A stretch of DNA of 64,000 bases, taken from assembly GCA_027489035.1 (NCBI GenBank), contig JAIYAN010000010.1, positions 1 to 64,000 of the forward strand. The letters are read 5' to 3'. The notes beneath the pieces were generated by a model, which saw nothing but the letters and a program-made list of their open reading frames with translations, was not told where the DNA came from and made no database searches. Of the stretch, positions 10,254 to 42,815 are shown one piece after another. The stretch is from Chitinophagaceae bacterium. GTDB taxonomy: Bacteria > Bacteroidota > Bacteroidia > Chitinophagales > Chitinophagaceae. A program made the position numbers and the translations under genes. Numbering within the stretch: the stretch's first letter is position 1; each line of letters begins with the position of its first letter.

Positions 10254-10616
10254 TTGGTTTATTCCATTGCGTAATAGCAATGAAATTGAAATAATTATTT
10301 TATTAATTCTTGTTTTTTGAGGGTCGTAATAACTAATTATAATACGGTACGTAGGGATGTTTATGATAGGATACGGAAAACTATGTTAATTAATTACTAA
10401 TTTATGGCTTAACAAATGCCAAAACAATATTAATGATGTTGATAAAAATCTAATTATTTAAGGAACTATTTTGAAATTTGTCAACGTTCCCGAAACAATC
10501 ATAGAAAACCATTAATTTTATTCTTTGCAATCGTTACCGGCAACGATATTTATAATTATCGAAACCGCATTTTTCATATATCTTTTTATAACTCTTTTAT
10601 ATGATTTTCAACACAA
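10254..10616. other. Intergenic regulatory region upstream of giant protein
   Basis: This 363-bp AT-rich gap separates two minus-strand genes. It contains the palindrome at 10530-10547 and a weaker related sequence, AACGTTCCCGAAACAATC, at 10482-10499. No gene fits here. The palindrome lies about 285 bp upstream of the chosen start codon, so the leader may be long. Confidence 0.6.
10530..10547. promoter_or_regulatory. LacI-family operator-like palindrome (site 1)
   Basis: The 18-bp sequence ATCGTTACCGGCAACGAT is an inverted repeat with 8 of 9 symmetric pairs and a central CCGG. A central CG palindrome is the usual form of LacI/PurR-family operators. It matches 14 of 18 positions of the site upstream of the 1788-aa protein and 12 of 18 of the site in front of the lacI-type gene at 40908. 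Binding by that regulator is inferred. Confidence 0.6.
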
Positions 10617-13600
10617 TTATTTAATTATTAGAGATTCGCAAATGGATAAACCGGTTCCATTTAAACAAATCTGATATACACCAGCATTTATTGATTTTGG
10701 TAATACTACACGAATCTGATTTCCATTTGTATAAACCACCTTGTTTTGATACACTTTTCTTCCTGTTGCATCAATTAAACTAATCTGAATATCTAAAACG
10801 TTATTCATCAAGCCAGTTATGTAAAATATGCCGTCTTTCCCAACTGGATTAGGCGAGATCGTTATCATTTGAGAATTTGTTCCAAATTTTATAGAAGCGA
10901 TTTTGCTATATTGAATACTTCCGTCGATTCCAATACTTTTAACTTTATAATAATTATTCCCTTTCTCAGGATGTTGATCTACGAAATGATAAGCATTTAA
11001 TTGCATTGCATCCAAATTCCCAATCTCTGAAAAATCAACTCCGTTTGTTGAACGTAAAATTGCGTAACGTTGAATGTTAACTTCTTGATCAACGTTCCAT
11101 TTTACATTTACTTGTTTTGATTGAACGGATGCTTTTATATCGATAAAAGTTACCGGCAAAGTAGTTACTGGTCTAAATACAATTTTGAAACGACTGCTTG
11201 AATTGGCTCCAGGATTATTTGACACCACGAAATTGTAAGTTGTTGTTGATGCAAATGACAATTCCGTTTCTGTTTGTAAATATTGATCTAATAGTATTGG
11301 TTTTAAATTATTGTAGTTGATATTTTGAGGTACAAATTGAAGCTGATAAGTTGCTTGCTTCATTTGTGTCATGTTGTAGTTGATGGTGTCACTTAATAAA
11401 AAAGGCTTTCTAGTTTCTATTGACAATTGTTTGTTGTTTACCATCAATGCAAAATTTTCACCAATATTCACCATTTTACTTGCATCTTCATCATTCAAAT
11501 CATTTGTGTTAGCATTATCAAGCATTTGTGTAACTCCGTCTACTATTTCGGCTACACCATTGGTCATTTTATATACATTGGTTCTGAATGAAGAAAACAC
11601 TTGATTCTCTCTCAGCACATTTGAACTTCCGTTGAACTTTGAAGCTTCTTTAAAAGTTATTGACCCTGCACCACCCGAACCTGTTTTAACCAGGAACCCT
11701 TGACCTGATTGTATTTGCGTATTGGAAGCATTGGTATATGTAAGCGTTATAGGCGTTGGATTACCTGCTGCATCGATTGTTACCCATCCACCATTAACCC
11801 CTACCCTTGGGTCATATAAATAATATACATTGGTCAACCCAGATTTTATTGTGTTGGCACTGTTGTAGTTGATTGCAGATGCATAAGGATTGGCAACCGA
11901 TACAAATTGATTGGCTCCAGTGCCTAGTGCAACAGTAACATCTCCAATATTCAATTCACCTTTTTCTCTCAATACTGTTGTATCTGGTATATCTGACATT
12001 TGATATTTGGCACGACTTCCTCTTACAAAAACCATATATGCCTTATTGGCAATAAAATTTGTATTGGTGGTAGATAATCCAGCCCAAGACTGAGTAGCAA
12101 TATCAAAAACTTTTATGGATGTTCCTCCAGGTTGATCAAAACCAGCTCCAGAGCCAGACATATTTGTACCATAACCAGGGTTGGGGTTAGATAAATTTCC
12201 TGCTCCACCTTCTTGCCAAGCTTCATTAATGGTTTGTGCATTATGTTTCGTTGGCGGTGATAATAAACGCCATGCTTTTAAGCTACGCCCTGTATCCTGA
12301 ATTGTATTTTTTATGTTTGAAATAAAACGTTCTGTCCAAACATCTCCAGAAATTGTATTGCCCAAATTTGCGCCATTATTTGTGACATCTGCAATATAAC
12401 CTGTTCCACTTTTTTTACTACGTAAATTAAGGAACCCATTTGAAGCAAAAGTTTTACTAGAAACATTTCCAAATTTAAAAGTGCCTTGAACAATGAGTGT
12501 TGCACTTAAACTAAAATTGCCTAAAACGGTAACATTATCAGTTGATGCAAGATTGTAGGTATTTGAAAAATCGAATGGGTCCGTTGCCAATTCGCCACTA
12601 TTTACGGTTAAATTTCTTACGGTTTTATTGTTGCTTTTTAGCGTATATGTAACACCGTCAGCAATGGTCAAATCTACCTTACCTGTTGTACTTCCGGGCA
12701 ATTCATTTGATGAGGTTAGGCTACTATTTATAAACAAATTCATTAGATCCGAACCTGCTTGCCCAATTGCCATCGTACCACTATTATTGTTGATATCCCC
12801 CGAATTGCGAATAATGGTTGAATTGTTTTTCATCAAAAGGGTGTTGCCACTTCCAATGGCAATGTTACCACCACTCATTGTTAACGTTCCCGAAATGATG
12901 GCCGAACAACCGGAAGCGCCGCTGATTGAAGCTCCTGAAGCGACTTCTAAATTATTCAAGCTTGGATTTCCAGTAATGTTTTTATTGGCGCCCGTCATTT
13001 TTATTTTGCCAGCACCTATCACTATCCCTGAACCAATAATATCGCCTCCAACCAAAACGTCAGTGGTACCAATATTTAATGTTCCATTTGATAACAATAG
13101 ATTGCCAGTTAAATTTACAGCAGTACCCAATTGTATTTGAGCATTTAACCCACTACGAGAAATTCTTAGAAAGCCTAAGTTTGCAGAGTCTGTTGTGAAT
13201 TTTAATGATGTAGACAAAGCATTAGGATTTGCTCCCAAAAAATGCAAATTGGCATTGGGTTTACCTGAAATCGTTCCTGTGCTAGTTGGCAAAATATCGC
13301 CATTAATATAAAAATTGCTGGTATCTTTTAAACTTAATTGCGAAGCACCTAAAGCATTTAAATCAACAATGGTTCTAGAGCCACTCAGGTTGTAACGAAT
13401 GCCCGAGTTTAAAGTTAATGTACCATATCCTCCAGGTGTAGTAAAACTGGCAAACTCATTATCATCAAACATGGTAGCGCCAATGATGATGTTTACTTTA
13501 TCTGCTGACGTACTTCCTAAAGCTAAAAATCCATTGGATAATGTAAGTTTACTAACTTCAGAATTTCTAATAATGGTAGAACCACCGCCCATTCGTAAAA

Positions 13601-15983
13601 AATTGCCCGCATTTACCCTTAATCTACCACCGTCTAATCTTAATAATCCTGGAATAGTTCGGGTAATATTTGCAATCGCTACTCCACCAATTACCACTGT
13701 ACTTGGCACATCAGGATAAGTTAATGCGAATGAAAAAGTGTTTGCCGTTACTGGAGGAGTAGTAGCAATCGTAAACGTACCTCCAAAAACAAAGCCAAAT
13801 TCTGATGTATTTAGGCCACCTAATGTAACTGAATTGCCAGCTACAAAATTATGTGTACCAGAAGTTGTAATTGTAGCAATATTATTTGTTAGCTGAACAT
13901 TTGAGACAGTAAAAGTATTAGGTGCTGATGGCGCTTCAAATTGCAAAGTTCCACTGTTTACAGTTACGTTTGTTGGCCCAGAGGTTTCTGGCCAAAATGG
14001 ACTTGTTTTGAAAGTATTTAAAGTTGAAGTCCCTCCGCTGAAAAACAATGTTGCATTTGCTCCATAAATTATTTTGAAAGCACTTGTTTGCAATCCGAAT
14101 TTTCCTGCAAGACGCACACTGTTTGTTACATTAATGTCGGATGTTATCGTATTGTTTGAAGAAGGTGCAGACGCATCAGAGATAATTAAATTGTAGTAAT
14201 TGAATGCAGGTATGGTTTGCCCACCTGCTGCTAAATTAAAATTAAATGTATTATCGGTAGTTGGCGTTAAGTTATATGTGCCAACACCTTTTGTAAATAC
14301 ACCTGACACGCCAATGGTATCAGCTGCGACGGTTGTGTTTCCACTTGCATTACTTACCGTTAAATTGTTGTAATTGAATTTTGGAATATTTTGACCACCA
14401 GTTGAATTATAGAAATTAAAGGTATGCGGGGAAGCAATAAAAAACATATTTGGAAAACTGCCTGGATTAAAAACTCCTTGAACAAATATTGTCCCGGTGG
14501 CTAACGACTGATTTACTGTTGCATTTGATGTAATTGATAAATTGTTATAGTTTGTAGCAGGAATGGTTTGGCCACCACTTGCATTGGTAAAATTTATTGT
14601 ATTACCCGTAACCACATTTGTTGTTGATGTTGAAGCTGCGGCAAGTGTGAAACTACCAGAAATATTAATTACACCTGCCTGAAAAATCGTTCTCCCTAAT
14701 CCTGCATTTGTATTTGAAATTGAAAGATTTCTATACGTTCCTGTTACTACTGTTTGACCAGTACCACCCGAACCAACTGCATAATTTACTGTTCCAGTTG
14801 CTCCCAATCCTTGCCAATCTTTACCTGCAGGAATTGGCGCCGCACTCGTGCTGTATGTTCTTATAGTGCCGTTATTATTTACAGAAGTAAGTGCTCCAGT
14901 AATATCATAACCTCCAACCAAACTCATATCCAATGTAATCCCTACATCTACTTGCAAACTACCGCTGATGCTAATGGCAGACAATGCATTAACAGTATGT
15001 ACCGTTGTTCCTGAAATTTGAATATTGTTATATCCGCCAACACCAGATGTATTTGTATTTAGTTGTGCAGTAGAAAGACCTGGCGAAGCTGCATCTAAAC
15101 CAGAATTTTGTACCAAGCTCTGCGCTACTAACGAGGTGTATAAAACTGTACCACTATTTACAAATTTTGTTGTACTCATGTTTGGAGTAGCTCCTGTAAA
15201 TTCCAAAGTACCACCTGTTTGGATTACAATCAAATTGCACTTTGAAGTACTAGAACCTGCAATAGCATAAGAAGTACTAACTGCACTGGTTAATTTAGCC
15301 CCATTTCTAACAACAATACTAGTATCTGTTATTGCAGTGGCTGTATTACAAGCTAATATCTTACTCGCTGTAATAGAACCACTTGAAACTATTATTTTTT
15401 TACCTTTGAAACCATCTGCCAAAGTACCTACAATTCCAGCATCTAAGGCAAACTCTATGTTTAAATTTGAGTTGCCGCTACCAGTCCATTCTCCTGCGAT
15501 TATTATAGGTCGAACACCGCTAGTACCCCCACCAACTAAACGCAGTAAGCCAGTGCTTGAAGTTGCAATCATTGCGGCAAAACCAGTTGCTGTACTTGTT
15601 CCTGTATAAGTGCCATCTGCACCAGTACCAATTTCTGCTGCTGTTTGGCCAATCATAGCCCTTATTTTTCCAGACACATTTACGTTAAACGTTGAATTGA
15701 TAGTAAGAGACGCAGCGTTATTATAAACATGCAAATCTTTACAAGCCGCATCAGCTGTTGTAACTGTAATTAAATTGCCGATTTGTATATATACATTATT
15801 TGTGGAAGATGGTAAGACTGTTGCAGCTGTCCAAGTATTAACGCCTGTTCTCACTTGCCAAGTTGCAAGGGTATGCCAACTTCCAGAAGCTACAGTTCTA
15901 TAATCTCCAACTGCAGGAGTTTGCGCTTCCACATTAAAAAAGTACAATAAAATTAAAGTAACGATGAGTAAAAAATTTTTCAT
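10617..15983 (-). CDS. Giant secreted beta-repeat protein with T9SS domain
   Basis: A 1788-aa secreted protein starting MKNFLLIVTLILLYFF with signal cleavage likely after VEAQ. Most of the body is repetitive Ser/Thr/Asn-rich beta sequence, including several units with GGQTIPAFNYYNL or close variants, consistent with a beta-helix or filamentous surface protein. Around residues 1250-1600 the sequence is less repetitive. The C-terminus has a classical T9SS type A sorting domain, with ISPNPVGKDGIFYI, a DATGRKV strand motif, NAGVYQI and a terminal LIIK. That implies export by the type IX system and attachment to, or release from, the cell surface. No catalytic motif is evident. Operator-like sites lie upstream at 16242 and 16027. 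Function in adhesion or substrate binding is inferred from architecture only. Confidence 0.82.
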   Translation of the reverse strand: MKNFLLIVTLILLYFFNVEAQTPAVGDYRTVASGSWHTLATWQVRTGVNTWTAATVLPSSTNNVYIQIGNLITVTTADAACKDLHVYNNAASLTINSTFNVNVSGKIRAMIGQTAAEIGTGADGTYTGTSTATGFAAMIATSSTGLLRLVGGGTSGVRPIIIAGEWTGSGNSNLNIEFALDAGIVGTLADGFKGKKIIVSSGSITASKILACNTATAITDTSIVVRNGAKLTSAVSTSYAIAGSSTSKCNLIVIQTGGTLEFTGATPNMSTTKFVNSGTVLYTSLVAQSLVQNSGLDAASPGLSTAQLNTNTSGVGGYNNIQISGTTVHTVNALSAISISGSLQVDVGITLDMSLVGGYDITGALTSVNNNGTIRTYSTSAAPIPAGKDWQGLGATGTVNYAVGSGGTGQTVVTGTYRNLSISNTNAGLGRTIFQAGVINISGSFTLAAASTSTTNVVTGNTINFTNASGGQTIPATNYNNLSITSNATVNQSLATGTIFVQGVFNPGSFPNMFFIASPHTFNFYNSTGGQNIPKFNYNNLTVSNASGNTTVAADTIGVSGVFTKGVGTYNLTPTTDNTFNFNLAAGGQTIPAFNYYNLIISDASAPSSNNTITSDINVTNSVRLAGKFGLQTSAFKIIYGANATLFFSGGTSTLNTFKTSPFWPETSGPTNVTVNSGTLQFEAPSAPNTFTVSNVQLTNNIATITTSGTHNFVAGNSVTLGGLNTSEFGFVFGGTFTIATTPPVTANTFSFALTYPDVPSTVVIGGVAIANITRTIPGLLRLDGGRLRVNAGNFLRMGGGSTIIRNSEVSKLTLSNGFLALGSTSADKVNIIIGATMFDDNEFASFTTPGGYGTLTLNSGIRYNLSGSRTIVDLNALGASQLSLKDTSNFYINGDILPTSTGTISGKPNANLHFLGANPNALSTSLKFTTDSANLGFLRISRSGLNAQIQLGTAVNLTGNLLLSNGTLNIGTTDVLVGGDIIGSGIVIGAGKIKMTGANKNITGNPSLNNLEVASGASISGASGCSAIISGTLTMSGGNIAIGSGNTLLMKNNSTIIRNSGDINNNSGTMAIGQAGSDLMNLFINSSLTSSNELPGSTTGKVDLTIADGVTYTLKSNNKTVRNLTVNSGELATDPFDFSNTYNLASTDNVTVLGNFSLSATLIVQGTFKFGNVSSKTFASNGFLNLRSKKSGTGYIADVTNNGANLGNTISGDVWTERFISNIKNTIQDTGRSLKAWRLLSPPTKHNAQTINEAWQEGGAGNLSNPNPGYGTNMSGSGAGFDQPGGTSIKVFDIATQSWAGLSTTNTNFIANKAYMVFVRGSRAKYQMSDIPDTTVLREKGELNIGDVTVALGTGANQFVSVANPYASAINYNSANTIKSGLTNVYYLYDPRVGVNGGWVTIDAAGNPTPITLTYTNASNTQIQSGQGFLVKTGSGGAGSITFKEASKFNGSSNVLRENQVFSSFRTNVYKMTNGVAEIVDGVTQMLDNANTNDLNDEDASKMVNIGENFALMVNNKQLSIETRKPFLLSDTINYNMTQMKQATYQLQFVPQNINYNNLKPILLDQYLQTETELSFASTTTYNFVVSNNPGANSSSRFKIVFRPVTTLPVTFIDIKASVQSKQVNVKWNVDQEVNIQRYAILRSTNGVDFSEIGNLDAMQLNAYHFVDQHPEKGNNYYKVKSIGIDGSIQYSKIASIKFGTNSQMITISPNPVGKDGIFYITGLMNNVLDIQISLIDATGRKVYQNKVVYTNGNQIRVVLPKSINAGVYQICLNGTGLSICESLIIK

Positions 15984-16026
15984 GTGGTCGATACTTTTAT
16001 TTGGGGTTTAGTTTTTTATAAGATTT

Positions 16027-16044
16027 ATTGCTTTCGGTAAGGGT
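16027..16044. promoter_or_regulatory. Weak operator-like site (site 4)
   Basis: The half-site GGTAAGGGT is identical to the right half of the site at 40840-40857. The left half (ATTGCTTTC) is poorly conserved. It lies about 50 bp upstream of the start codon at 15983, similar to the 59 bp between the site at 40840 and the lacI-type start codon. Taken alone it is weak evidence. Confidence 0.35.
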
Positions 16045-16241
16045 TGCGGATAATTATAATTTAAAATTTCACAATTTTTGTTGCAAATTATAAAATTTTA
16101 GTTTGATGCGTAAGCTATTGTTTAGTTTTCAATATTATTTTACCGGATATGAGATATAATTTCTAATTTTTTAAAAGAATATTTAAAACTATCTAAATAA
16201 ATTTAACTTATGTTAATTTTTTTTTAATTTAAATTATTGGC

Positions 16242-16259
16242 ATCGTTGCCGGAAAGGGT
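16242..16259. promoter_or_regulatory. LacI-family operator-like site (site 2)
   Basis: ATCGTTGCCGGAAAGGGT has the same left half as the 10530 palindrome and agrees at 15 of 18 positions with AACGATGCCGGTAAGGGT at 40840. The palindrome itself is imperfect (6 of 9 pairs). It lies about 265 bp upstream of the start of the 1788-aa protein. Confidence 0.5.
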
Positions 16260-16389
16260 TTTGCTCTTTTTTAAAATTAGTTTTATCTTTTTACAATCAT
16301 AAATTTTAGCGCAATTATTTTAACGTTTTTTCTAAAATTATTGAAGAAACAACCGTTTTGTTTAACGAATCTCCTATTTGAATAAACGA

Positions 16390-17754
16390 CTACGCCACAA
16401 TTGCTTTGTATTTTGGCACCAATGACTTCATTAAAAACCAAGCCAATAAATAGGCTACTGCACAAAACGCAAACATGATGGTATATCCCGTTTGGATATG
16501 TCCTAACGCTTTGTATTTATCAAATAGTGCACCCCCTGTTTTGGTTACAATCACACCGCCTAATCCTCCAGCCATACCTCCAATACCAATTACAGATGCA
16601 ATTGATTTTTTAGGAAACATGTCTGAAACGGTAGTGAATAAATTGGCGCTCCAAGCCTGATGCGCAGAAGCTGCTACACCTATTAACAATACAGGCATCC
16701 AAAAACTGATGTCTCCTAAAGGCTGTGCCAATAGTACAACCAATGGAACTACCGCAATTAATAACATCGCTTTCATTCTTCCATCATAAGGTGTATACCC
16801 TTTTTTTATAAAATAAATAGGAAACCATCCACCACCGATACTCCCAAACATCGTCAAACTATACAAAACGGTTAAAGGCAAGATTATTTGTGTTCCCGTC
16901 ATGTGGTATTGATCTTTTAAATAGGCAGGTAGCCAAAACAAAAAGAACCACCAAACGCCATCCGTTAAAAACTTACCAACGGCAAATGCCCATGTTTGAT
17001 TGTAGCCTAACAATTTAACCCAAGATAACTCTGCTGTGTTTTTTATTGAATTTTCACTAACTGATTCTTCCTGATCGCTATTTATGTAATTGAATTCTTC
17101 TTTTGAAAGTCGTTTTTGATTTTCAGGTTTTTCATAAAATATGAACCAAAAAATCAACCATAAAAAGCCTATGCTACCGATAATAAAAAATGCAGCTTCC
17201 CAACCCCAGTTGGTTGCAATCCATGGAACAGTTAGTGGTGCTAAAATTGCACCTACGTTCGTTCCAGAGTTAAAAATTCCGGTGGCAAAAGCTCTTTCCT
17301 TTTTGGGGAAGTACTCAGCTGTTGCTTTAATAGCGGCAGGGAAATTACCCGATTCGCCAAAACCTAACACAGCACGCGACAACATAAAACCAGCAATTGA
17401 AACAGGCACCGCTGCAATGCCTACCCAACCCAATAAGGCAACTACACTTTCGCCCATTGGTATTGCTAATCCATGAATTGCTGCGCCTACAGACCAAATT
17501 ATGATTGCCCAAGCAAAGCCCCATTTTGTACCAAGCTTGTCTATAATTCTACCGGCAAACAACATGGAGATTGCATAACTAAACTGGAACACAGATGCAA
17601 TGTTTGCGTAATCACTATTTGTCCAACCAAATTCTTCTTCCAAAGTTGGCTTTAATAAACTCAACACTTGTCTGTCTAGATAATTTACCGTTGTTGCAAA
17701 AAACAAAAGAGAACAAATCGTCCATCTATATTTGCCAATTTTTGAAGTATCCAT
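16390..17754 (-). CDS. MFS hexuronate-type transporter (ACS family)
   Basis: An inner-membrane major facilitator of 454 aa with about 12 hydrophobic segments. The N-terminal NYLDRQVLS motif and the FGESGNFPAAIKATAEYFPKKERA stretch are typical of the anion:cation symporter group that includes ExuT and other hexuronate importers. Here it probably carries uronate or unsaturated uronate mono- or disaccharides from the periplasm into the cytoplasm. It is the last gene of the PUL run, starting 1 bp after the stop of the KDPG aldolase gene, so translational coupling is likely. Exact substrate cannot be read from sequence; galacturonate, glucuronate or 4-deoxy-5-ketouronate are candidates. Confidence 0.88.
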   Translation of the reverse strand: MDTSKIGKYRWTICSLLFFATTVNYLDRQVLSLLKPTLEEEFGWTNSDYANIASVFQFSYAISMLFAGRIIDKLGTKWGFAWAIIIWSVGAAIHGLAIPMGESVVALLGWVGIAAVPVSIAGFMLSRAVLGFGESGNFPAAIKATAEYFPKKERAFATGIFNSGTNVGAILAPLTVPWIATNWGWEAAFFIIGSIGFLWLIFWFIFYEKPENQKRLSKEEFNYINSDQEESVSENSIKNTAELSWVKLLGYNQTWAFAVGKFLTDGVWWFFLFWLPAYLKDQYHMTGTQIILPLTVLYSLTMFGSIGGGWFPIYFIKKGYTPYDGRMKAMLLIAVVPLVVLLAQPLGDISFWMPVLLIGVAASAHQAWSANLFTTVSDMFPKKSIASVIGIGGMAGGLGGVIVTKTGGALFDKYKALGHIQTGYTIMFAFCAVAYLLAWFLMKSLVPKYKAIVA

Positions 17755-17755
17755 T

Positions 17756-18415
17756 TTATTTGGTTTTTATCGTTTGTAAAAGTGCCAGCACTTGTGTTGT
17801 TGCTGATTCTATTTCTGTGTAATTTTTTTCTTCCATTAATTTTTTGCTAATAAGCTTACTGCCCATGCCTACTGCACAAACGCCTGCTTTAAACCAACTT
17901 TCAATGCTTTCTTTTGTAGTATCCACACCGCCTGTAGGCATGAATAATAATTTAGGAAAGATCTCTTTTATTGAACTTAAAAATTCAGGACCCAGCATAT
18001 TACCAGGAAATAATTTAATAAAAGTTACGCCGCTATTTTCGGCAGCGATAATTTCTGTTGGCGTCATACATCCCGGCGCATATAGCATACCGATAGTGTT
18101 CGCTTTTTCGGCAACTTCTTTTACAAAACCTGGACTTACCAAAAAATCTGCACCTGCAGCAATGTAATCTTCTGCTTGTTGGAGATTTTTTATCGTTCCT
18201 ACGCCTAATAACATTTCGGGCATTTCTGCATTTCTAACCTCAACCATTTTTTTGAAATTATTTAATGCGGCTTCTCCACGATTGGTGTACTCAACAGCTT
18301 TAACGCCTGCTTTGTAAATAGCACGTAAAATTTCAACACTTACTGTTTCATATGCATTGAAATATAATGGCAATATGCCTTGATTGATTATTGCTTCTGT
18401 AGCTTTTTGTTTCAT
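17756..18415 (-). CDS. eda: 2-keto-3-deoxy-6-phosphogluconate aldolase
   Basis: A class I aldolase (219 aa) of the KDPG/KHG family that splits KDPG into pyruvate and glyceraldehyde-3-phosphate in the cytoplasm. The Schiff-base lysine is in FIKLFPG (K134 from the chosen start), and the partner glutamate is in VEYTNRG (E42); GVGTIKN and MPTGGVD also match the family. The start MKQKATEA at 18415 gives the usual length. A longer reading to 18475 would run through A/C-rich repeat DNA and is rejected. It follows the KDG kinase gene and precedes the transporter by 1 bp, completing the route from uronate to central metabolism. Confidence 0.93.
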   Translation of the reverse strand: MKQKATEAIINQGILPLYFNAYETVSVEILRAIYKAGVKAVEYTNRGEAALNNFKKMVEVRNAEMPEMLLGVGTIKNLQQAEDYIAAGADFLVSPGFVKEVAEKANTIGMLYAPGCMTPTEIIAAENSGVTFIKLFPGNMLGPEFLSSIKEIFPKLLFMPTGGVDTTKESIESWFKAGVCAVGMGSKLISKKLMEEKNYTEIESATTQVLALLQTIKTK

Positions 18416-18417
18416 AT

Positions 18418-18523
18418 AGAAAAATGTTTGTGGTTTGGCGTTTGTGTTTTGGTGTTTGGTGTTGGAACGAATCACTATCTTGAATCTATCATCCAGAATC
18501 TAATATCCCGAATCCAATTTTTA
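18418..18523 (-). repeat. Intergenic mosaic repeat between kdgK and eda
   Basis: The gap between two co-directional genes is filled with low-complexity DNA. Read on the coding strand, about two and a half 14-bp units (related to TGGATTCGGGATAT) come first, then an A/C-rich block (AACACCAAACACC and CGCCAAACCACAAACATTTTT) that ends three bases before the eda start codon. The same A/C block occurs at 44387, 47135 and 59171. The 14-bp block touches the kdgK stop codon. Confidence 0.75.
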
Positions 18524-19546: not shown

Positions 19547-19593
19547 AGCTTTTTGTTTTTTTCTTTTGTTTAATTAAAATATTTTATCGGTTT

Positions 19594-22125: not shown

Positions 22126-22142
22126 AGGTTATTAAAAATCAA

Positions 22143-23738: not shown

Positions 23739-23755
23739 TTTAATTTTTAATTTTT

Positions 23756-26581: not shown

Positions 26582-26593
26582 TTTAGTGATTTT

Positions 26594-27532: not shown

Positions 27533-27542
27533 GTTTGGATTA

Positions 27543-28472: not shown

Positions 28473-28474
28473 AA

Positions 28475-30016: not shown

Positions 30017-30043
30017 TTTATGATTATTAATATTATTCAATGA

Positions 30044-33000: not shown

Positions 33001-33241
33001 TTTGAGTAGCAAAGCCAATGCTAGAGAAAATTAAAGTGACTTTTGATTGTTTTACTGAAATAGTAAACGTACCGTCTTTCTTTGTAGAAGTTCCAGACTT
33101 GGATTTGTCAACAACAATATTAACACCTTCAAGCTTTTCTCCGGTAGTTTTATTTGTTACAGTTCCAGTAATCTCTCTTTTTTGCGCATGCCCTATTAAT
33201 ACAGCAAACAAAAACACCAATGTGTAAAAACCTTTTTTCAT
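30044..33241 (-). CDS. SusC/RagA-family TonB-dependent transporter
   Basis: A 1065-aa outer-membrane TonB-dependent oligosaccharide importer. After the signal peptide (ending GHAQ) comes a carboxypeptidase-regulatory-like domain (about residues 22-100), then the plug domain with VVVIGYGTQRRGDVTGAI and the ALQGKIAGVQV and YGSRGASGVILITTK segments, followed by the beta-barrel and a C-terminal aromatic residue (GVDLNF). It pairs with SusD and is energised by TonB-ExbBD encoded elsewhere. There is no extra N-terminal DUF4880/STN domain, so direct anti-sigma signalling is not indicated; control probably goes through the LacI-type regulator. Confidence 0.95.
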   Translation of the reverse strand: MKKGFYTLVFLFAVLIGHAQKREITGTVTNKTTGEKLEGVNIVVDKSKSGTSTKKDGTFTISVKQSKVTLIFSSIGFATQMLQLDKNTNEVNVQMVPSISDNAEVVVIGYGTQRRGDVTGAITKFKDDKLDEAPVVRLDQALQGKIAGVQVQNLSSEAGAPPKVTVRGISSIYAGASPLVVVDGQPVPDGLAYVNMADVESVEILKDAASAAIYGSRGASGVILITTKAGKSEKAKYVFKYSVGAKQDYKRYDVFTTTEYLNNLYYEASLRAQDPSVPAPTEATIATNNERAGYIIENALFGGKGTNWQDQALRTGMFQNILLSVSGGKSDVKYYISGGYQKDEGLMRNSEFDRFNVRTRIDVNLTSKVKLVVNINPSYSRRESPSVNYTTFVRYASFLPVKHNAATLGLVGQNPQWSTLNVGDFAQPRHFNNLYYAGYMPNGTYWDPGGISDAFNSSTNSPSAILNNTFIENKEYRLQSSADLTIKLFKGLDFKSLSTMYINKSNGLNWSNRNAEADGLVSRGVFTDNMFVDLLSEQTFTYNKVVKDHNFNVLAGFTMQTTKTKKDQVTGLDFPSDNIRTYNNASIIDKGSTFGSNNTVALISYLGRVNYNYKSKYLISASFRTDGSSYFGPGNKWGTFPSVSAGWAMDKEKFMNKVKWISKLKWRASYGVSGNNRILDFGFLDLLYISNYSFGNGTGNVNTGQSTSATIRSNKDITWESTFQANYGMDLSILKGRLGITVDYYNSKTDKLLLQQATVAYSGVPASWNNIGSLKNTGIELQLNSINVTKRNFKWSTAANISHTQNKILELGQESFLLNEGERNELYLNKVGLPLIQYFGYKTDGIWLSQAEIDAAQANGLSSQLANVFVPGQLKIVDINGDNVIDIKDRTVLGSPYPDFTWGVTNTITYNQFDLSFTFQGVQGGSLINGDPNYDDVKKLVRNYNSNRYISPLFPGDGKTPNYNKAAFNWLLTDYVIEDASYYALREINLGYKFPDDKIKFAKISSLRLYLSAQNLYFHTAKGYRGINPEARVTSGPYGSALVGGYQRGSFPIPQTFVFGVDLNF

Positions 33242-33256
33242 TTTTCTTATTTTTCT

Positions 33257-34471
33257 TTAGTCGATTAATGTGGTTAGATGAAGGATTGATTGATCCGCTT
33301 TTTTATCCAAATTTTTGTAAAACCCGGGTAAGCAACTTGAGCATTTATATTTATAGTGTCCTTTTGCCAATAAGCTAGAATACTCATCATATTCAAACGG
33401 CTTTATTTGTTGTCCAATCCAATCTTTTTCATTGGCAAGGTATGGTACCAACACTTCAAACCCTTTTTTAATTGATTTTCCTTTTGGGGTTTCATAATTC
33501 CAAAGATCTTCATTTAAAAAACTTCCCATTTGGGCAATCCAAAATAAAGGTTCTAAAATAAAAGCTTCATAATGCAAAGAGATTGTTCTTTCCATCTCTA
33601 GTGGGAAGAAACCCGTTTCATCCATTTGAGATTCTAATCTTTCTTTAACGCTTTCTATTGTAGCTTTTGCTGCTTTATTATTTTTTGTAAACAATGCAAA
33701 ACCCAATTTCTGAGCATCATACCAAATTCCGTGATTGTTTTTTGCATTCATTTCTTCTATACCATTTTTGCTGGTAGAAAACCATTCAAGATATGCTTTA
33801 AACCAATCCTCCATACCTGCTTGTTCTTTTGAAGTCCAATGTTTTGAATGCTGTAGCAACCCAATGGCATCAATTACCAACACAAATTCTCTGCTTTCGA
33901 TTAATCCAATTCCACGTCCATCATTTTTACCTTTAATGGCTTGAGCAAAATTTAAGTTCGGATTCATTTTCGTTGCCGGATCTAAAAACCATGCTTTAAT
34001 TTGTGCTACTGCTTTTTCAGCATATTTTTCATCTTCTGAAAAATAATAAGCAAGGGCTAACTTTTCAACCGATTTTATCATCAACCCAATATTCGCTTTG
34101 TCTTTATAATCTTTTGTTTCAGGATTTATTTCACCATCTCTTCTGATATATGGAAGACCATTTGGCTTTTTGGGGTCAGGCCAAAAATAAATGGCAATGG
34201 TCATGTAATCATGCATATCACCACTCGGTGGGATTTGTTTTTTTTCCATCACCGTGTACAATTCCTTCACCGCCAACGCCTCATCTGCTACACTCAATAA
34301 TTTATTATACGATGGCAAAAGCCTAGGATCGTTCTGTTTGACCTTTGCTTTATTTATTTCCAATGCATTTCTATCCATCGCAAAAACATTCAATTTGCTT
34401 TCCTGTGATTTTGCCATGCTTATAATAAACATCGAAAATGTAAATAGCCAATAAAATTTATTTTTTATCAT
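33257..34471 (-). CDS. Secreted alginate lyase-fold protein (PF05426; PL38/PL5-like)
   Basis: A 404-aa exported alpha/alpha-toroid lyase with signal peptide ending near AKSQ. The stretch YFWPDPKKPNGLPYIRRDGE, the SREFVLVIDA helix, NNHGIWYDAQ with the conserved Asn-His pair, and ERTISLHYEAF match the alginate-lyase domain as seen in Bacteroidota PL38-type enzymes. PL38 members act on polymannuronate, and some on glucuronan. It is probably an endo- or exo-lyase in the periplasm or on the surface, because it lacks a T9SS domain. It sits 7 bp after the MBG-repeat protein gene and 15 bp before susC. Confidence 0.82.
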   Translation of the reverse strand: MIKNKFYWLFTFSMFIISMAKSQESKLNVFAMDRNALEINKAKVKQNDPRLLPSYNKLLSVADEALAVKELYTVMEKKQIPPSGDMHDYMTIAIYFWPDPKKPNGLPYIRRDGEINPETKDYKDKANIGLMIKSVEKLALAYYFSEDEKYAEKAVAQIKAWFLDPATKMNPNLNFAQAIKGKNDGRGIGLIESREFVLVIDAIGLLQHSKHWTSKEQAGMEDWFKAYLEWFSTSKNGIEEMNAKNNHGIWYDAQKLGFALFTKNNKAAKATIESVKERLESQMDETGFFPLEMERTISLHYEAFILEPLFWIAQMGSFLNEDLWNYETPKGKSIKKGFEVLVPYLANEKDWIGQQIKPFEYDEYSSLLAKGHYKYKCSSCLPGFYKNLDKKADQSILHLTTLID

Positions 34472-34478
34472 AATTTAC

Positions 34479-37400
34479 TTATTTGATGATACGCAGCCAT
34501 CTTGTTACTGCACCTTTTTTACCCCTGAATACAACTAAATAATTACCAGACGCTACATTGTTTACAATTAAATTTGAAGCAGAAAATCCTTTATTTACTA
34601 AGATGTCTTTTTGAGCCAAAAATCTGCCTTGAGCATCATACACCATTAATTTACCAATATCTGTTTGTGGTGAAAAGAATTTCACATACACTTGTCCGTT
34701 ATTATAATACGAAACCATTGTTTGAACAGTGCTATCCTCCGGATTTATAGTTAATGAACCACTTCTATATGTAATTTCATAATTATTCGCATCAGCACCA
34801 CCCGCTACAACACTATAAACGCCGGGGGTTGAATTCAAATTTGCTGTTGTTGTAATCATTGGTTGCGCAGAAAGTGCAGAAGTTGTTTCACCTAAAACAA
34901 ATCCGTTGTAATCTAACGTAAAAGCAGGATTTGCTGTTCCTTCGATTTTAAAAGTATCTCTAACGCTTATGAGTAGTGGTGCTTTATTTACAACTACGGT
35001 TATAAGCACATCATTTGCAGGGAAATAAGCATCATTGCCAGGTTGTGATACTACAATTGTTGCTGTACCAACGCCTACGATTTGAAGTGTTGAACCATTT
35101 ACAGTTACTACAGAAGTATTTGAGCTCGTCATTACAAGCGGAATGCTGTTATTAGTACTATTTACCTGTAAATTATAAGTTGATGTGCCGTAAGTAATCG
35201 CAGGTACATTACTATATGAAATCGTTTGATTTTGTTTTGCCAAAACCGTTAATGTTCCAGCTACAAAATTAATTTCGTAATTAGAAGCGGTTGCTCCTGA
35301 AACTGTAATTGGATAACTACCAGGCGTAGATGCTGTTACAGCTGTTGTGCTTAAATCAACCTGTGTAATTAAAACAGATTCATTTTCTGCATAAACAAAC
35401 CCTGTGTAAGAAGCCGTTAATGCAGGGTTTGCTGTCCCTTCAAATTTCGTTAAATCATTCGCCGTAATGGTAAGATTTGCTTTATTAATAGTTAATGTTT
35501 GTGTTTGTGAGGCAGAAAGATAAACACCATCAGTTTCTTGTGAAGCATTTATATCTGTAGTCCCAACACCAACAATATGAATAACCCCTGTACTTGAAAC
35601 CGTTGCTACAGAAGTATTTGAGCTTGTGTATACAATTGGCTGAGCGGTATTCAAACTTGTAGCACCCGAGCTAAAGTCAGGATTCCCATAAGTTCTATTA
35701 GCAAGGGCATTAAAAGTAAATGCTGATATTAATGGAACCGAACCTATACTATAGTTGCCTGTAGATGTTGTTGGACCAAATGCTGTGTTAGTTGTATTGT
35801 TACCTGTACCAAATGGAGCATCCCATGTAGTGCCTGTATTTTTTATAATGCCGATTCTTGAATTGGCTTGTGTTGTAAACAAACCTCCTTCCAACAATTC
35901 ATCCCAACCAAAGTTTAATCCAATGTCGCCTGTACCTGAAGAACGGCCTACTTTCCAAACAGCATTTACCACTTTAGATAATTCAGCAGGTATTAATGGC
36001 GTTCCATTCACCAACCCATTATCTGTGATGCCTTCAAATACAGAAGCCAACAACGTTGACGAGTTTGTAGACGAAAAAATTACAGGTAAATAGTATGTTG
36101 CAGAGCCAACAGGGAAAAGTTTTGCCCCATTAACAAGATCAATTCTTAAAGTACCTGTATTCGTTCCATTACTCAATGCAACAATATGCTTTGCATTTGT
36201 AAATGGTGCTCCGCCAATGTCTTTTCCATTTTTTATTCTAATGGTATCTGTAGCACGAATAGAAAACAAACCGGAATTTATAGTTAATACACTATCAATT
36301 GTAGCAGAACGATTTGATGTACATGCTGCATTGAAGGTTACATTTCTCATGGTTGAAATAACAACAACACTAAAGGGTTGTGTTGTTGGTGCATCAAAAA
36401 AATAATCGGTCAAACTTGAAAGCGACAAAGTACCTACGCCACTTAACCCACCATCAATGCCGTTTATATTAGATGTACGTAAAACAGGAATTCCTCCTGA
36501 AATAGTTACGTTTGTTGGTGTTGCCGTTAATGCATTTGAAATGGTGATTGTACTTGCACTCGATGAAGTACCAATTATAAATGTATTGGCTGGTATTCCG
36601 TTTCCAGTAATCTGCAATCCGTTTGCAACGCCAGCTGTGTTTGTTGTACCATTATAAACCGTTGCATCTAAAACAATTGTAAAACTTCCAACTGCAGCGG
36701 AGGTAACATTTGAAGTAACCGGAACTGAATAAACCGTTCTAAAAGATCCTGTTCCAGAAATGGTTTTATTTTGAAGATTTAATGTTCCGTTATTGGAAGA
36801 AGTAGAAGTACCGTTTATGATGAGATTTGCGTTTAAAGTAACATTTGAACTAGGAGAAATGGTAAATGCACCAATTGGCTCAAAAGTACCATTACCACTG
36901 ATTGTTTGTGGAGTTAGTCCTTTCATTAATAATGTAGAAGAAGTGAATCCTGTGGCAGATCCAAACACTCCATTATTTACAATATTTCCTGAAATTGAAG
37001 AAGAACCTGATGCTTTCAAATAAAAACTAGATCCTGCATCTATGGTTAAATTATCAATATTATAAAAAGCATCCCCAACAACTACTGCTCCTCCACCGAT
37101 TTCAACATTTGAATATTTTCTTGTGCTGAATAAATTAGATGAAGTAACCGTTGCACTTGGGATTGAAGATTCAATTCTAAAAGTACTACCAGGCTTTAAT
37201 TCTATTGGATTAAAACTACTTGTATTTGTGTACACGTTATTGCCTCCTAGAAATGTTAACTTAGAACCACTGTTAAATACAATAGCACCAGGAACACCAC
37301 TATTAGAACCAAATGGATATTGACTACTTGAAGTTCCCGATGAAGAAAATGTATTATTGGCTTTTACCCTACATTCAGAACCATTTTCAAAGAAAATAGC

Positions 37401-37940
37401 ACCGCCAGTTTGGGTATTTAAAGCAGTTAATTTTGATGCACCATTTATTAAAAATAAATTTCCAAAAACCCTACCTGTAGCAGTTGCAGCTAAAGCTATG
37501 TTATTACCTGCTGAATCTATTACGCTGTTTTGCACAGTAGAATTTAATGTACAACCTGCATTAACCAATAAATCCTCCGCATTTGTAGCATCTCCATTGA
37601 TTGTTATTGATCCAGTACTCGCCGTAGATCTAACTAAAGTTAAATTCGCCCCATTTCTTAAAATAAGTTGAGCTAATGTTGTTGAGCCACAGGTTGCTGT
37701 AATATTACCAACTGTTGGCGTTGACCCTCCTACGTTAGTCCCATCAACTATTAATATATCAGTTGCCGCTGATATAGTCCTTGCTGTTCCAGAACCATCC
37801 AAGGCGGTATTCCATCTGCTATTGGTGGTGAAACTTACAGTTGTGGTTATTCCGGTTCCTCCAACCCAATAATAAGTTGTTTGAGAAAATGTAAATAATG
37901 ACGAGCAAATTAATGTCATTACAAATAATAGATTTTTCAT
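34479..37940 (-). CDS. Secreted MBG-repeat surface protein with T9SS domain
   Basis: A 1153-aa exported protein (signal peptide MKNLLFVMTLICSSLFTFSQ) with no catalytic motif. The N-terminal 700 residues are Ser/Thr/Asn-rich beta repeats, similar in style to the two giant proteins near the left end. From about residue 750 there are alternating Ig-like (SSNTSVATVSSTGVIHIVG) and MBG-type modules; two copies contain KFEGTANPALTASYTGFV or KIEGTANPAFTLDYNGFV. The C-terminus is T9SS-like (MVYDAQGRFLAQ, final LRIIK). Because the gene is embedded in the PUL between kdgF and the PL38-like lyase, a role in binding the polysaccharide or anchoring enzymes at the surface is inferred. Confidence 0.8.
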   Translation of the reverse strand: MKNLLFVMTLICSSLFTFSQTTYYWVGGTGITTTVSFTTNSRWNTALDGSGTARTISAATDILIVDGTNVGGSTPTVGNITATCGSTTLAQLILRNGANLTLVRSTASTGSITINGDATNAEDLLVNAGCTLNSTVQNSVIDSAGNNIALAATATGRVFGNLFLINGASKLTALNTQTGGAIFFENGSECRVKANNTFSSSGTSSSQYPFGSNSGVPGAIVFNSGSKLTFLGGNNVYTNTSSFNPIELKPGSTFRIESSIPSATVTSSNLFSTRKYSNVEIGGGAVVVGDAFYNIDNLTIDAGSSFYLKASGSSSISGNIVNNGVFGSATGFTSSTLLMKGLTPQTISGNGTFEPIGAFTISPSSNVTLNANLIINGTSTSSNNGTLNLQNKTISGTGSFRTVYSVPVTSNVTSAAVGSFTIVLDATVYNGTTNTAGVANGLQITGNGIPANTFIIGTSSSASTITISNALTATPTNVTISGGIPVLRTSNINGIDGGLSGVGTLSLSSLTDYFFDAPTTQPFSVVVISTMRNVTFNAACTSNRSATIDSVLTINSGLFSIRATDTIRIKNGKDIGGAPFTNAKHIVALSNGTNTGTLRIDLVNGAKLFPVGSATYYLPVIFSSTNSSTLLASVFEGITDNGLVNGTPLIPAELSKVVNAVWKVGRSSGTGDIGLNFGWDELLEGGLFTTQANSRIGIIKNTGTTWDAPFGTGNNTTNTAFGPTTSTGNYSIGSVPLISAFTFNALANRTYGNPDFSSGATSLNTAQPIVYTSSNTSVATVSSTGVIHIVGVGTTDINASQETDGVYLSASQTQTLTINKANLTITANDLTKFEGTANPALTASYTGFVYAENESVLITQVDLSTTAVTASTPGSYPITVSGATASNYEINFVAGTLTVLAKQNQTISYSNVPAITYGTSTYNLQVNSTNNSIPLVMTSSNTSVVTVNGSTLQIVGVGTATIVVSQPGNDAYFPANDVLITVVVNKAPLLISVRDTFKIEGTANPAFTLDYNGFVLGETTSALSAQPMITTTANLNSTPGVYSVVAGGADANNYEITYRSGSLTINPEDSTVQTMVSYYNNGQVYVKFFSPQTDIGKLMVYDAQGRFLAQKDILVNKGFSASNLIVNNVASGNYLVVFRGKKGAVTRWLRIIK

Positions 37941-38017
37941 TTTTTATTTTTTATTTTCTAATTTATTCAGAGGGGCTGATATCATTCAATATCAGTTAAA
38001 TGTTCAAAAAAAAATCA

Positions 38018-38377
38018 TTATTGAAAAAAGTCTTCTCTCATTGGATTAAATACATCTACCAATACCCCTTCTTCCAAGCAAACAACTCCATGTACTAAAT
38101 TTGATTCCACATAAAAAACATCTCCTGCATTCAAAATTTGTTTTACGCCATCTATCTGAACTTCAAACGAACCACTTTCAATTAATGTCATTTGAATATG
38201 CGGGTGTTGGTGTAAGGTACCAATTCCGTCTTTATCAAAAGCTACCCTAACCATCATCAGATTTTTATCGTAAGCCAATATCTTTCTTTTCACGCCTGGA
38301 GCCATTTGTTGCCATTCAATTGTAGTTCCATTTACAAAAGGTTGTTGTGTTAGCTCCATTGATTGTGTTGTTGACAT
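38018..38377 (-). CDS. KdgF-like cupin, unsaturated uronate ring-opening
   Basis: A small single-domain cupin (119 aa) of the KdgF type, which speeds conversion of 4,5-unsaturated uronate monomers to their linear keto forms. Metal-binding residues are visible as HQHPHIQ (His56, His58, Gln62) and His96 in NLVHGVV. KdgF-like genes occur in both pectin and alginate loci. No signal peptide is visible, so it acts in the cytoplasm. It follows the PL17 gene by 34 bp, the enzyme expected to produce its substrate. Confidence 0.85.
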   Translation of the reverse strand: MSTTQSMELTQQPFVNGTTIEWQQMAPGVKRKILAYDKNLMMVRVAFDKDGIGTLHQHPHIQMTLIESGSFEVQIDGVKQILNAGDVFYVESNLVHGVVCLEEGVLVDVFNPMREDFFQ

Positions 38378-38411
38378 AAATTTAATTTTTGAAATTTTTA
38401 AAGTTGTGTTT

Positions 38412-40613
38412 TTATTTTAAATTTTTATTGTTGTATCTAATTAAAAAAGGTCCATTCCATTTCATCTTTTCACCTTCATAAAAATATTCATGAAGGCTTG
38501 ATTTATTGTTATCATTATTGCATTGTATGACAAGCAAATTCTGTTTGTTAATTACAACTTCAGCAACAGTGTACATCGCATCATCTTGTAATTTATTTAT
38601 AGCGCTCACTACAGAATTTGTATAAGAAGAAATTTCTGTTACTGGATCAAAATTACCATGCGATTCTATTACATTGATGAATGTTTGATTTTGACTTTTT
38701 GTTCTTAAAATATAAGAAGGGTCGTGTCTTAAATTAAAATTAGGATCACTAGCCCCAACCCTTGTAAAATGGGCTGTTGCGCTATCTGAAGACAAGCTAG
38801 AAATGGTATAAAATGTACGATGATTCAAATAGGTAAACTGAGTAAATAAAGGCAATTTTTCCGACACTGCTTCTTGCCATAAATGCTGATACCCATTTTT
38901 AATTCCCAATGTTTTTTGTTCGGTTAAAAATGATTTGTATTTAAAATTCGTTTTCATCATAGTGCCCAAATAATTAAACGGCAAATCGTATTGGTGAACA
39001 GAATCTGATTTTGTTTTAAAAATGTCTAATACCAATTTTTGATTCACATCTGGTAATTGAATCATAAAAAGGGTTCGATACAATTTTACATTCGAGTATG
39101 CATTATCGTCATACGAAGAAACGACTTGAACATTTTTACCCGATAAATCACAGTAAAAAACATTGCCATGATGTTGTTCGCTAATCTTCTCAATACCTTT
39201 ATAATGACTAGTTTCATCAACTGTAATCGTATTGTGCGCAATGGTTTGTTGTGCATAAGAATTTGTTTCTGGCAAATATCTTCCACCCCATTTGTGTTCA
39301 ATATTAATATAACGAACAGCTCCATAATCTTGAAGCACCTCATTGCCTTTATCGTACAATTGAATATTTAATTTGTCATAATGACCATGTGACAAACCAT
39401 GGGAACTATATTTAAAAATCAAAGACATTAAATCATTTCCTTTTCCATTTCTTAAAACAGTAACCCCGCCACTTTTACCATCCGCACCATCAACATACTG
39501 TGCCGATTTGTAAGGAAAGCTTAAGTTTTTATTTCCAGTTTTTTTCAAGTTGTTGCTTATTTCTACTCCACCTTTATTTAATAAAATTCGATTTTGTGCT
39601 TTTGCAACGGGTAGATAAGCCGGATCAACACCATAGGCTTTACTTGCAATATCTACAGCAACCACCAATTCATTTGAACTGTACGTCTTTTCTTTTAACG
39701 CATCATTAAAGCTGTAAAAAGACCCATCGGTATTGGTTAAGTTTAAACAAACGTCCAATGCTTTTTTCAAAATGCTATCTCTATGTTGAAATATTTTCAA
39801 TGATGGTTTTACTTGTTGAATCGCATTTGCAAAATAAAAGAAAGGCAACACTGCATATCTGGTATAATAAGGCCCTTCATTATAATAACCATCCGGAGCA
39901 AACAATCCATCTAAATGTGCTATAAAACCAGCCTTGCCATCTTTTTCTGTTCCATAAAGGGCCATATTCAAATAATCATCATTGTCGGTAGCAATACCAA
40001 CTATGCCGACTCCCGCACAAGCCCAAACTGCATGGTTGTGAATAAGATTAAACCAAGGCTTAATGTCTTTTGTGAAATAATCTACCAATGGCTTAAATGC
40101 GCCATCTGCAATTTGCTTGCGCTCAGCAACAGTTAGATAATCGTGAATACAATCAAAAGCCAATCCAGCAAATACCAACCAATTGGCATCATTTAATGCT
40201 TGCCAAAATAATCTTCCTGGCGAACTGCTTGTTGCCTGAGGATGTTTAACCAAGGTTGGATTTAGTGCCACGTATTTTAGAAATAATTTCTTTACAACTT
40301 CCGCATATTTCTTATCGCCTGTAAGCTGATACATTTGTCCTGCATCAAACATCAATAGATAATTTGTTTTGTGTTTATCGTGGGTATAGCCTCCAGCAGC
40401 ATCTTTTGGAACAGGCACATCAATATCTAAACCCAATTGGGCATCAACTTTAGATTTTAAATCTAGAAATGATTTTTTAGCTCCGTCATTGGATGCAATA
40501 TTTTGTTTTACAAATTGAAACTCTGCTTTATTAGCAAAAGCTACGGGATGCACCTGTGCAAATGAATGCAGCTGAATAATGCAAATAATTAATATTGTAC
40601 CAATGTATTTCAT
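38412..40613 (-). CDS. PL17-family oligoalginate lyase
   Basis: A 733-aa exo-acting lyase that removes unsaturated uronate monomers from alginate oligosaccharides. It has a signal peptide ending at SFAQ, an alpha-toroid N-terminal domain and a heparinase II/III-type C-terminal beta domain (from about residue 380, starting SHGLSHGHYDKLNI). Asn193-His194 in IHNHAVW and Tyr250 in GPYYTRYA have the same spacing as the catalytic N201-H202 and Y258 of Alg17c. No T9SS domain is seen, so a periplasmic site is likely. It is the first gene of the minus-strand PUL, and its promoter region is shared with the divergent lacI-type gene. Confidence 0.92.
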   Translation of the reverse strand: MKYIGTILIICIIQLHSFAQVHPVAFANKAEFQFVKQNIASNDGAKKSFLDLKSKVDAQLGLDIDVPVPKDAAGGYTHDKHKTNYLLMFDAGQMYQLTGDKKYAEVVKKLFLKYVALNPTLVKHPQATSSSPGRLFWQALNDANWLVFAGLAFDCIHDYLTVAERKQIADGAFKPLVDYFTKDIKPWFNLIHNHAVWACAGVGIVGIATDNDDYLNMALYGTEKDGKAGFIAHLDGLFAPDGYYNEGPYYTRYAVLPFFYFANAIQQVKPSLKIFQHRDSILKKALDVCLNLTNTDGSFYSFNDALKEKTYSSNELVVAVDIASKAYGVDPAYLPVAKAQNRILLNKGGVEISNNLKKTGNKNLSFPYKSAQYVDGADGKSGGVTVLRNGKGNDLMSLIFKYSSHGLSHGHYDKLNIQLYDKGNEVLQDYGAVRYINIEHKWGGRYLPETNSYAQQTIAHNTITVDETSHYKGIEKISEQHHGNVFYCDLSGKNVQVVSSYDDNAYSNVKLYRTLFMIQLPDVNQKLVLDIFKTKSDSVHQYDLPFNYLGTMMKTNFKYKSFLTEQKTLGIKNGYQHLWQEAVSEKLPLFTQFTYLNHRTFYTISSLSSDSATAHFTRVGASDPNFNLRHDPSYILRTKSQNQTFINVIESHGNFDPVTEISSYTNSVVSAINKLQDDAMYTVAEVVINKQNLLVIQCNNDNNKSSLHEYFYEGEKMKWNGPFLIRYNNKNLK

Positions 40614-40839
40614 AATAAATTATATCGTAAACAACCTTTCCAAAAATCAAAAATTACTAAGGAAAAGATATCCAAAAACTTTGACAATAGAATCTTGAAT
40701 ATCTTGTAATATTATCGGCAAATGTTTAATTAAGCGGATTGAAAATGATTGTATTTTATCTAAATAATAATCATAAAACTTAATTATTTTTCAAGATTAA
40801 CAAACAAATAATAAAAATTCACAAAGACTAAAACATGAA

Positions 40840-40866
40840 AACGATGCCGGTAAGGGTGCCGGTAAT
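40840..40866. promoter_or_regulatory. Tandem operator-like cluster at lacI/PUL promoter (site 3)
   Basis: AACGATGCCGGTAAGGGT (40840-40857) agrees at 15 of 18 positions with the site at 16242, and a second overlapping GCCGGTAA half-site follows immediately (40858-40865). LacI-family regulators usually bind near their own gene, so this is the best candidate operator for the product of the gene at 40908. It overlaps the region just upstream of the TATCTTTG box, which suggests repression by blocking polymerase. Confidence 0.6.
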
Positions 40867-42808: not shown

Positions 42809-42815
42809 TTTCAAC

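Follow-up and report, generated by a model that had tools for sequence, protein, structure and literature searches.

Whether the breakdown of a uronan and the display of two giant proteins are controlled together is the question raised by this locus, where a sequence-only reading had found a LacI-type palindrome in front of a PUL and of both giant genes and had proposed a single regulon. With the same control site, the probable target of a single sugar-sensing regulator, before the PUL and both giants, polymer consumption and giant display look like one programme, and this would, if true, provide a testable genetic link between polymer sensing and a cell surface that may hold the polymer. Such a link between sensing and surface is a central question for particle-attached Bacteroidota.

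Gene content of the locus

The window, by which we mean the whole 64,000-nucleotide stretch that was analysed, covers positions 1-64000 of contig C10 in a 3.04-Mb assembly of 26 contigs, and the genes of concern here are the following.

108..10280, minus strand: 3390-aa protein with Gly_rich_2, fn3 and repeats (domain search)
10617..15983, minus strand: 1788-aa protein with a signal-like N-terminus, a weak T9SS sorting domain and a C-terminal part common to other giants (domain and homology search)
16390..38377, minus strand: remaining PUL genes (domain search)
38412..40613, minus strand: opening gene of the PUL, encoding an alginate lyase / heparinase II/III-like protein (domains)
40908..41927, plus strand: LacI-family regulator, presumed reader of the operators (Pfam LacI and Peripla_BP domains)
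41990..43577, plus strand: KduI-family protein and SDR dehydrogenase, probably belonging with lacI (gene order conserved across many relatives)

The lacI gene diverges from the minus-strand PUL, beyond which the genes for the 1788-aa and 3390-aa proteins follow on the same strand as the PUL. The product of the first PUL gene is one that we take to be of PL17 type from its pair of domains, and the remaining genes encode a cupin (KdgF-like), an MBG protein, an alginate lyase (PF05426), SusC, SusD, two BD-FAE esterases, a chondroitinase B-type lyase (PL6-type), a sulfatase, an 843-aa protein, a PfkB (KDG-type) kinase, a KDPG aldolase and an MFS transporter. The SusC/SusD pair, the alginate lyases and the KDG kinase and KDPG aldolase domains place the cluster, by its predicted products, among alginate PULs. 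Because a sulfatase (22143-23738) and two BD-FAE-type esterases (26594-28472) are also present inside it, the gene content suggests an acetylated, perhaps sulfated, uronan as the substrate rather than plain algal alginate, and bacterial alginate is a candidate. The 843-aa protein (19594-22125) had no Pfam match at E 0.001 and no NCBIfam match, and its homologues are present in the PULs of two relatives (G015 and G070).

Confident domains in the giants were limited to the glycine-rich and fn3 domains of the 3390-aa protein, in which neither Pfam nor NCBIfam revealed a T9SS sorting domain; in the 1788-aa protein Por_Secre_tail reached 20.0 bits, below the cut-off of 27. The C-terminus of the 3390-aa protein (108-300, residues 3329-3390) resembles a dockerin-like pair weakly (Dockerin_1, 17 bits, cut-off 22.9). 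Residues 1-700 of the 1788-aa protein were modelled as beta-rich (pLDDT 68.7), with no match at E 0.001 or better in a fold search against the PDB, and its C-terminal 680 residues gave a poor model (pLDDT 56.9). When the PDB was searched by sequence, this protein had no match and the 3390-aa protein a single weak one (E 0.048). The role of the giants in particle attachment suggested by the sequence-only reading is a prediction.

Putative operators before the PUL and both giant genes

Three sites in the window were recognised as putative LacI-type operators, none of them assigned to a strand.

10530..10547: single palindrome ATCGTTACCGGCAACGAT, upstream of the 3390-aa gene (motif, matrix and genome pattern)
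16242..16259: operator ATCGTTGCCGGAAAGGGT, upstream of the 1788-aa gene (motif, matrix and genome pattern)
40840..40866: tandem operator AACGATGCCGGTAAGGGTGCCGGTAAT between lacI and the PUL, with two CCGG cores 12 bp apart (conservation among lacI orthologues)

The motif proposed earlier was found without mismatch at 10530-10547 and 16242-16259 and with two mismatches at 40840-40857, and when up to three mismatches were allowed it gave seven strand matches in the window against 0.96 expected. Each of the three lies in a gap between long ORFs, as had been claimed, and so do the 8 of 9 symmetric pairs at 10530 agree with the earlier description (16242 has 6 of 9 and 40840 has 5 of 9). The distances from operator centre to start codon were likewise reproduced at 285.5, 267.5 and 235.5 bp, the first being counted from ATG 10253 and depending on the ambiguous start of the larger gene (TTG 10280, ATG 10253 or ATG 10232). 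Absent from the earlier account was the 27-bp tandem operator of which the 40840 site is a part. A symmetrised weight matrix, trained on 29 lacI operators from other genomes and none from the window, ranked the same three positions highest (40840, 27.3; 10530, 24.9; 16242, 24.7), followed by a position at 13.9, and the best of 15 Markov-shuffled windows reached 13.2. In addition, GCCGGAAAGGGT at the 16242 site is the lacI operator core of several orthologues.

A fourth, weaker site had been reported at 16027, where we found no match within three mismatches and a best nearby matrix score of 6.4 (rank 15 of 63,983), compared with 24.7-27.3 at the three main sites; it was dropped as an operator. 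Its likeness to the lacI operator falls in a leader that is conserved among the closest relatives only.

The regulator itself carries PF00356 (51.8 bits, cut-off 27), PF00532 and PF13377, and has CcpA and PurR as its best PDB relatives. Orthologues at least 63% identical occur in 30 of 93 genus genomes, the next best match being 41%, and a CCGG-N8-CCGG tandem operator stands 60-85 bp before lacI in all 30 of them, as for example CCGGTAACGTTACCGGTAACGTTACCGG in G023 (L057), with the arms departing most strongly in G057 (L048). The presence of the motif before lacI in every orthologue supports the earlier suggestion that this LacI would be the reader of the palindrome. The sites are even palindromes with a central CG, co-conserved with the regulator, as is expected of LacI operators, though 16242 and 40840 are imperfectly paired.

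Outside this set, 41 further named LacI loci were examined, one of which (L157) is G057 itself. Six of them have, no more than 450 bp before lacI, a palindrome centred on CCGG in which 8 or 9 of the 9 pairs are symmetric, and four others a GCGG-centred variant with 7 or 8 pairs, the remaining 31 having other palindromes or none. Alginate-type PUL genes adjoin three of the six (L158, Hymenobacter artigasi L159 and Dyadobacter jejuensis L160), and the palindromes of these three follow the same consensus as the genus operators. The nearest named relatives of LacI, 79-97% identical, come from MAGs titled Chitinophagaceae, Chitinophaga, uncultured Bacteroidetes and Ferruginibacter, and judging from isolate names a freshwater origin is probable. 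One MAG contig with this PUL (L155) carries the public title Streptomyces griseus, which is surely a label error.

The pattern AWCGNTNCCGGNAASGNT, designed from the window sites and the lacI operators, was matched exactly at only three places in the 3.04-Mb assembly, all of them the window sites; the reversed pattern had no match there. No exact match fell inside any gene, so that the regulon idea came through the genome scan that had been proposed as its check. When CGTTNCCGGNAANGRT was searched with one mismatch, five other places in the genome were obtained, four of them in ORFs and one intergenic (C3:256941), whose flanking genes do not look uronan-related. A profile search of the same genome gave 18.5 bits at 40840, 15.0 at C11:66733, 14.2 at 16242, 13.7 at 10530 and 12.1 at C22:2097. 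The last of these sits in an open frame, and C11:66733, which outscores both giant sites, is one further intergenic site and belongs to a pectin operon.

Conservation in relatives was followed in the 17 genomes whose LacI reaches 80% identity. Eleven of them (G000, G006, G007, G070, G073, G078, G080, G081, G082, G083 and G091) match the pattern exactly in front of a giant homologue on the same contig. For G015 and G059 the contig stops close to the site and does not reach the next gene, and in G067, G077, G085 and G087 the sole exact match is the one at lacI, the giant loci not having been located there. A KDG kinase, sought in eight genomes as a means of locating missing giants, was present in four, with no operator in those four loci. 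G075 also has a site before a giant, though no LacI there passed E 1e-40. In total, 17 giant genes in 12 genomes (window included) are preceded by a site, its edge lying 191-318 bp from the mechanical ORF start: 3390-type genes in G006, G075, G078, G081, G082 and G083 (the protein match in G082 being weak, E 1e-6) and 1788-type genes in G006, G007, G070, G073, G078, G080, G081, G083 and G091. An exception is the 1788-type gene of G082, which follows an MFS gene by 88 bp and has no site. Several site-bearing giants share no more than 34-46% identity where they can be aligned, and the persistence of the sites despite this divergence indicates that they outlast the coding sequence.

Operators also precede giants in two single-contig genomes (G001:C1:2045008 and G002:C1:53264), in which LacI is only 39-41% identical and there is no close orthologue. 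A third glycine-rich giant in G078 (L093, G078:C30:6042) has an operator with a gap of about 800 bp, on a contig other than that of lacI; growth of the regulon beyond the locus is possible there. The C-terminal part of the 1788-aa protein (from about residue 1145; 10620-12551) matches giants in 63 of the 93 genomes at E 1e-60 or better and has four further matches in its own genome; among the matches listed are C9:53343, C11:9211 and C10:179071, near which the genome scans found no operator, the upstream gap of the C9 gene having also been scanned directly.

Of the proposed regulon, the link between the PUL and the giants therefore stands as a prediction, having survived the scan of its own genome and with sites kept before diverging giants, and what fell was the fourth site. 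We consider it about 80% probable that LacI (40908-41927) binds the CCGG-centred operators at 40840-40866, 16242 and 10530 and would thereby place the uronan PUL, the two giant genes beside it and lacI itself under one signal as a local regulon, to which TTAGA boxes, probably with a second dimeric factor, would also belong.

A second box in register with the operator

The gaps between the operators and the genes contain further elements, all on the minus strand, with slots counted in bp from the nearer CCGG.

40705..40714: candidate core promoter in the PUL gap, a conserved TAATATTACA block (conservation)
40759..40763: TTAGA box of the PUL promoter, slot 87 (spacing analysis)
16192..16196: TTAGA box of the 1788-aa gene promoter, slot 56 (spacing analysis)
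16162..16166: TTAGA box of the 1788-aa gene promoter, slot 86 (spacing analysis)
10449..10453: TTAGA box of the 3390-aa gene promoter, slot 87 (spacing analysis)

The TTAGA box is a newly found element that the sequence-only reading had overlooked, and it occurs in all three window gaps at nearly the same distance from the nearer operator core (PUL, 87 bp; 1788, 86 bp; 3390, 87 bp). Across 36 promoters (49 minus 13 near-duplicates; 23 PUL, 7 1788-type and 6 3390-type), 23 of the 28 TTAGA boxes located 10-100 bp from the operator were within 1 bp of 25, 56 or 87, and the pile-up at 87 amounted to 15, the largest in 2000 Markov shuffles being 4. An exact TTAGA was in a slot in 19 promoters (11/23 PUL, 5/7 1788-type and 3/6 3390-type) and in none of the slots of the other 17. 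TCTAA, the box in reverse, is most frequent at 35 and 66, which makes the element an inverted repeat, TTAGA-N5-TCTAA, placed at 31-bp steps. Dyads with at least 8 of 10 letters lay in slots in 28 of 41 cases (mean 0.5 and maximum 4 in 500 shuffles), and these counts follow from a spacing rule derived post hoc and are inflated by the relatedness of the promoters, the slots nevertheless differing among lineages.

The promoter of L093, which was not used to derive the rule, has TTAGA at 87 and 118. No TTAGA was found in slots at the sites of G001, G002, G016, G033, G057 and G082 (SusC), and among 12 operators that belong to LacI relatives other than the 30 orthologues, read in both directions, only L158 had an 8/10 dyad in a slot (88). 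On its own the exact dyad TTAGA-N5-TCTAA does not serve as a useful marker, since 62 of the 93 genus genomes contain it and its single occurrence in the own genome is intragenic.

A second dimeric factor would probably bind the TTAGA halves, in register with the operator. Rather tentatively, at somewhat less than even odds, we propose a two-factor promoter ruler, in which the LacI operator and one or more dyads at 31-bp multiples (three helical turns) would align a LacI dimer and the second dimeric factor on one face of the DNA and mark a regulon of glycan breakdown and giant surface proteins, the slots (25, 56, 87 and 118) shifting in evolution while the phase is kept. The phased second box offers a concrete route to regulon members and to the missing factor.

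With regard to the core promoter, an ATTACA block was found 138-140 bp from the operator in 13 of 23 PUL and 4 of 7 1788-type promoters. A search for the Bacteroidota -7 box TAnnTTTG from 12 to 191 bp from the operator gave no decisive position, and a scan for sigma-70 promoters and terminators stayed at chance level. The operators, at 235-285 bp from the start codons, are farther out than is usual for LacI factors, over 75% of whose sites were reported at 30-140 bp and about 7% beyond 200 bp (PMC4052901). According to the account of Flavobacterium psychrophilum, 5' leaders are short in that species (median 24, mean 65 bp; PMC9723704), and if short leaders are valid here, the operators would lie far upstream of the transcription starts.

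DEH, KDG, a uronate oligomer or another breakdown product is the likely inducer, and we favour repression relieved by it (about 60%) over activation (about 40%). Simple occlusion would fit less well than looping or a block on the second factor, given that the candidate core promoters are downstream of the operators. A less probable but serious variant, compatible with the main explanation, is that LacI acts from upstream as an activator together with the second factor: the operators are about 140 bp upstream of the ATTACA block in the PUL and 1788-type gaps, the lacI start follows them after about 55 bp, and phased upstream boxes would suit cooperating activators. Against this variant, LacI factors are mostly repressors, and a -7-like box 12-26 bp from the operator, present in 11 of 30 PUL gaps compared with 5.8 expected, would fit occlusion.

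Paralogous regulators and known systems

The same genome has a second uronan cluster, at G000:C11:56000-92000 (L250 and L251), with pectinesterases, GH28, GH43 and a pectate lyase, as well as mannitol-dehydrogenase- and altronate-dehydratase-type enzymes and a KDG kinase 97% identical to that of the window. Its LacI paralogue is 35% identical to the window LacI. That the giant sites are read by another LacI paralogue, such as this one at C11:82787 by the pectin PUL, and that the giants belong to another or a shared uronate regulon, we regard as unlikely. The recognition helices are similar, with STVSRALRD in both; the operator-like C11:66733 precedes a GH28 gene about 16 kb from the paralogue; a LacI 38-39% identical adjoins a CCGG-centred palindrome in G026, G013 and G054; and G001 and G002 keep the site before giants with only their distant LacI. 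Of 30 pattern loci, classified one per genome and including the lacI sites used to design the pattern, 17 were intergenic, 12 of them among the 15 in genomes with a LacI orthologue and five among the 15 in genomes without, these five being the three beside the 38-39% paralogue and the two before giants in G001 and G002. The paralogue-side sites, however, carry a TTGCGTAAA flank, no CG-centred palindrome reaching 7 of 9 pairs is present in the promoter gap of the paralogue itself in G000, and the giants adjoin the alginate-type PUL. Moreover, TTAGA is absent from the slots at G026, G054 and C11:66733, whereas the PUL and giant sites share them, which argues for separate regulons; cross-talk between the alginate-type and pectin LacI systems is possible.

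Some pattern matches are noise, the 93 genus genomes giving 96 strand matches for AWCGNTNCCGGNAASGNT and 19 for its reverse (palindromes counted twice) and 13 of the 30 loci lying inside ORFs, but that the sites as a whole are chance matches or functionless leftovers of neighbouring sequence is very improbable in view of their retention before divergent giants, the gap in matrix score (24.7 vs 13.9) and the preferred spacing to TTAGA.

Control of the PUL and the giants by the window LacI, our preferred reading, resembles the local sugar regulons described in a survey of LacI factors in its even palindrome with a central CG, its autoregulation and its sugar-acid pathway genes (PMC4052901). Overlapping tandem sites in that survey peak at about 13 bp, the spacing here being 12 bp, and the predicted giant secreted targets, the more distant sites and the phased second box set this locus apart from the regulons it describes (PMC4052901). 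In Zobellia galactanivorans an alginate PUL is also controlled through single, double or triple operators, by AusR, described as the first identified regulator of alginate catabolism; AusR is of the GntR family, unlike the LacI here, and giant-protein targets are not mentioned in the portions of the reports cited (PMC8286568, PMC7874173). The regulator linked to the present PUL has LacI and periplasmic-binding domains only, and an annotation as LacI regulator was reported for 8 of 29 cases in clusters of alginate genes (PMC7874173). Searching the open-access literature by title and start of abstract, we found no report in which an alginate PUL and giant or adhesin proteins are connected by a LacI operator, and searches on the group and alginate gave no title on PUL regulation in Chitinophagaceae.

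The operator of GntR of E. coli, a gammaproteobacterial protein with other target genes than those here, is CCGG-centred. This LacI-family gluconate regulator has, as here, overlapping operators (PMC4052901). Closer by phylum are UxmR (BT3613, mannuronate) and KdgR (BT0487) of Bacteroides thetaiotaomicron, which are likewise LacI-family uronate regulators of Bacteroidota, predicted by comparative genomics (PMC3878776); they belong to a different class of the phylum, and their likeness to the LacI of this locus is one of family and predicted function.
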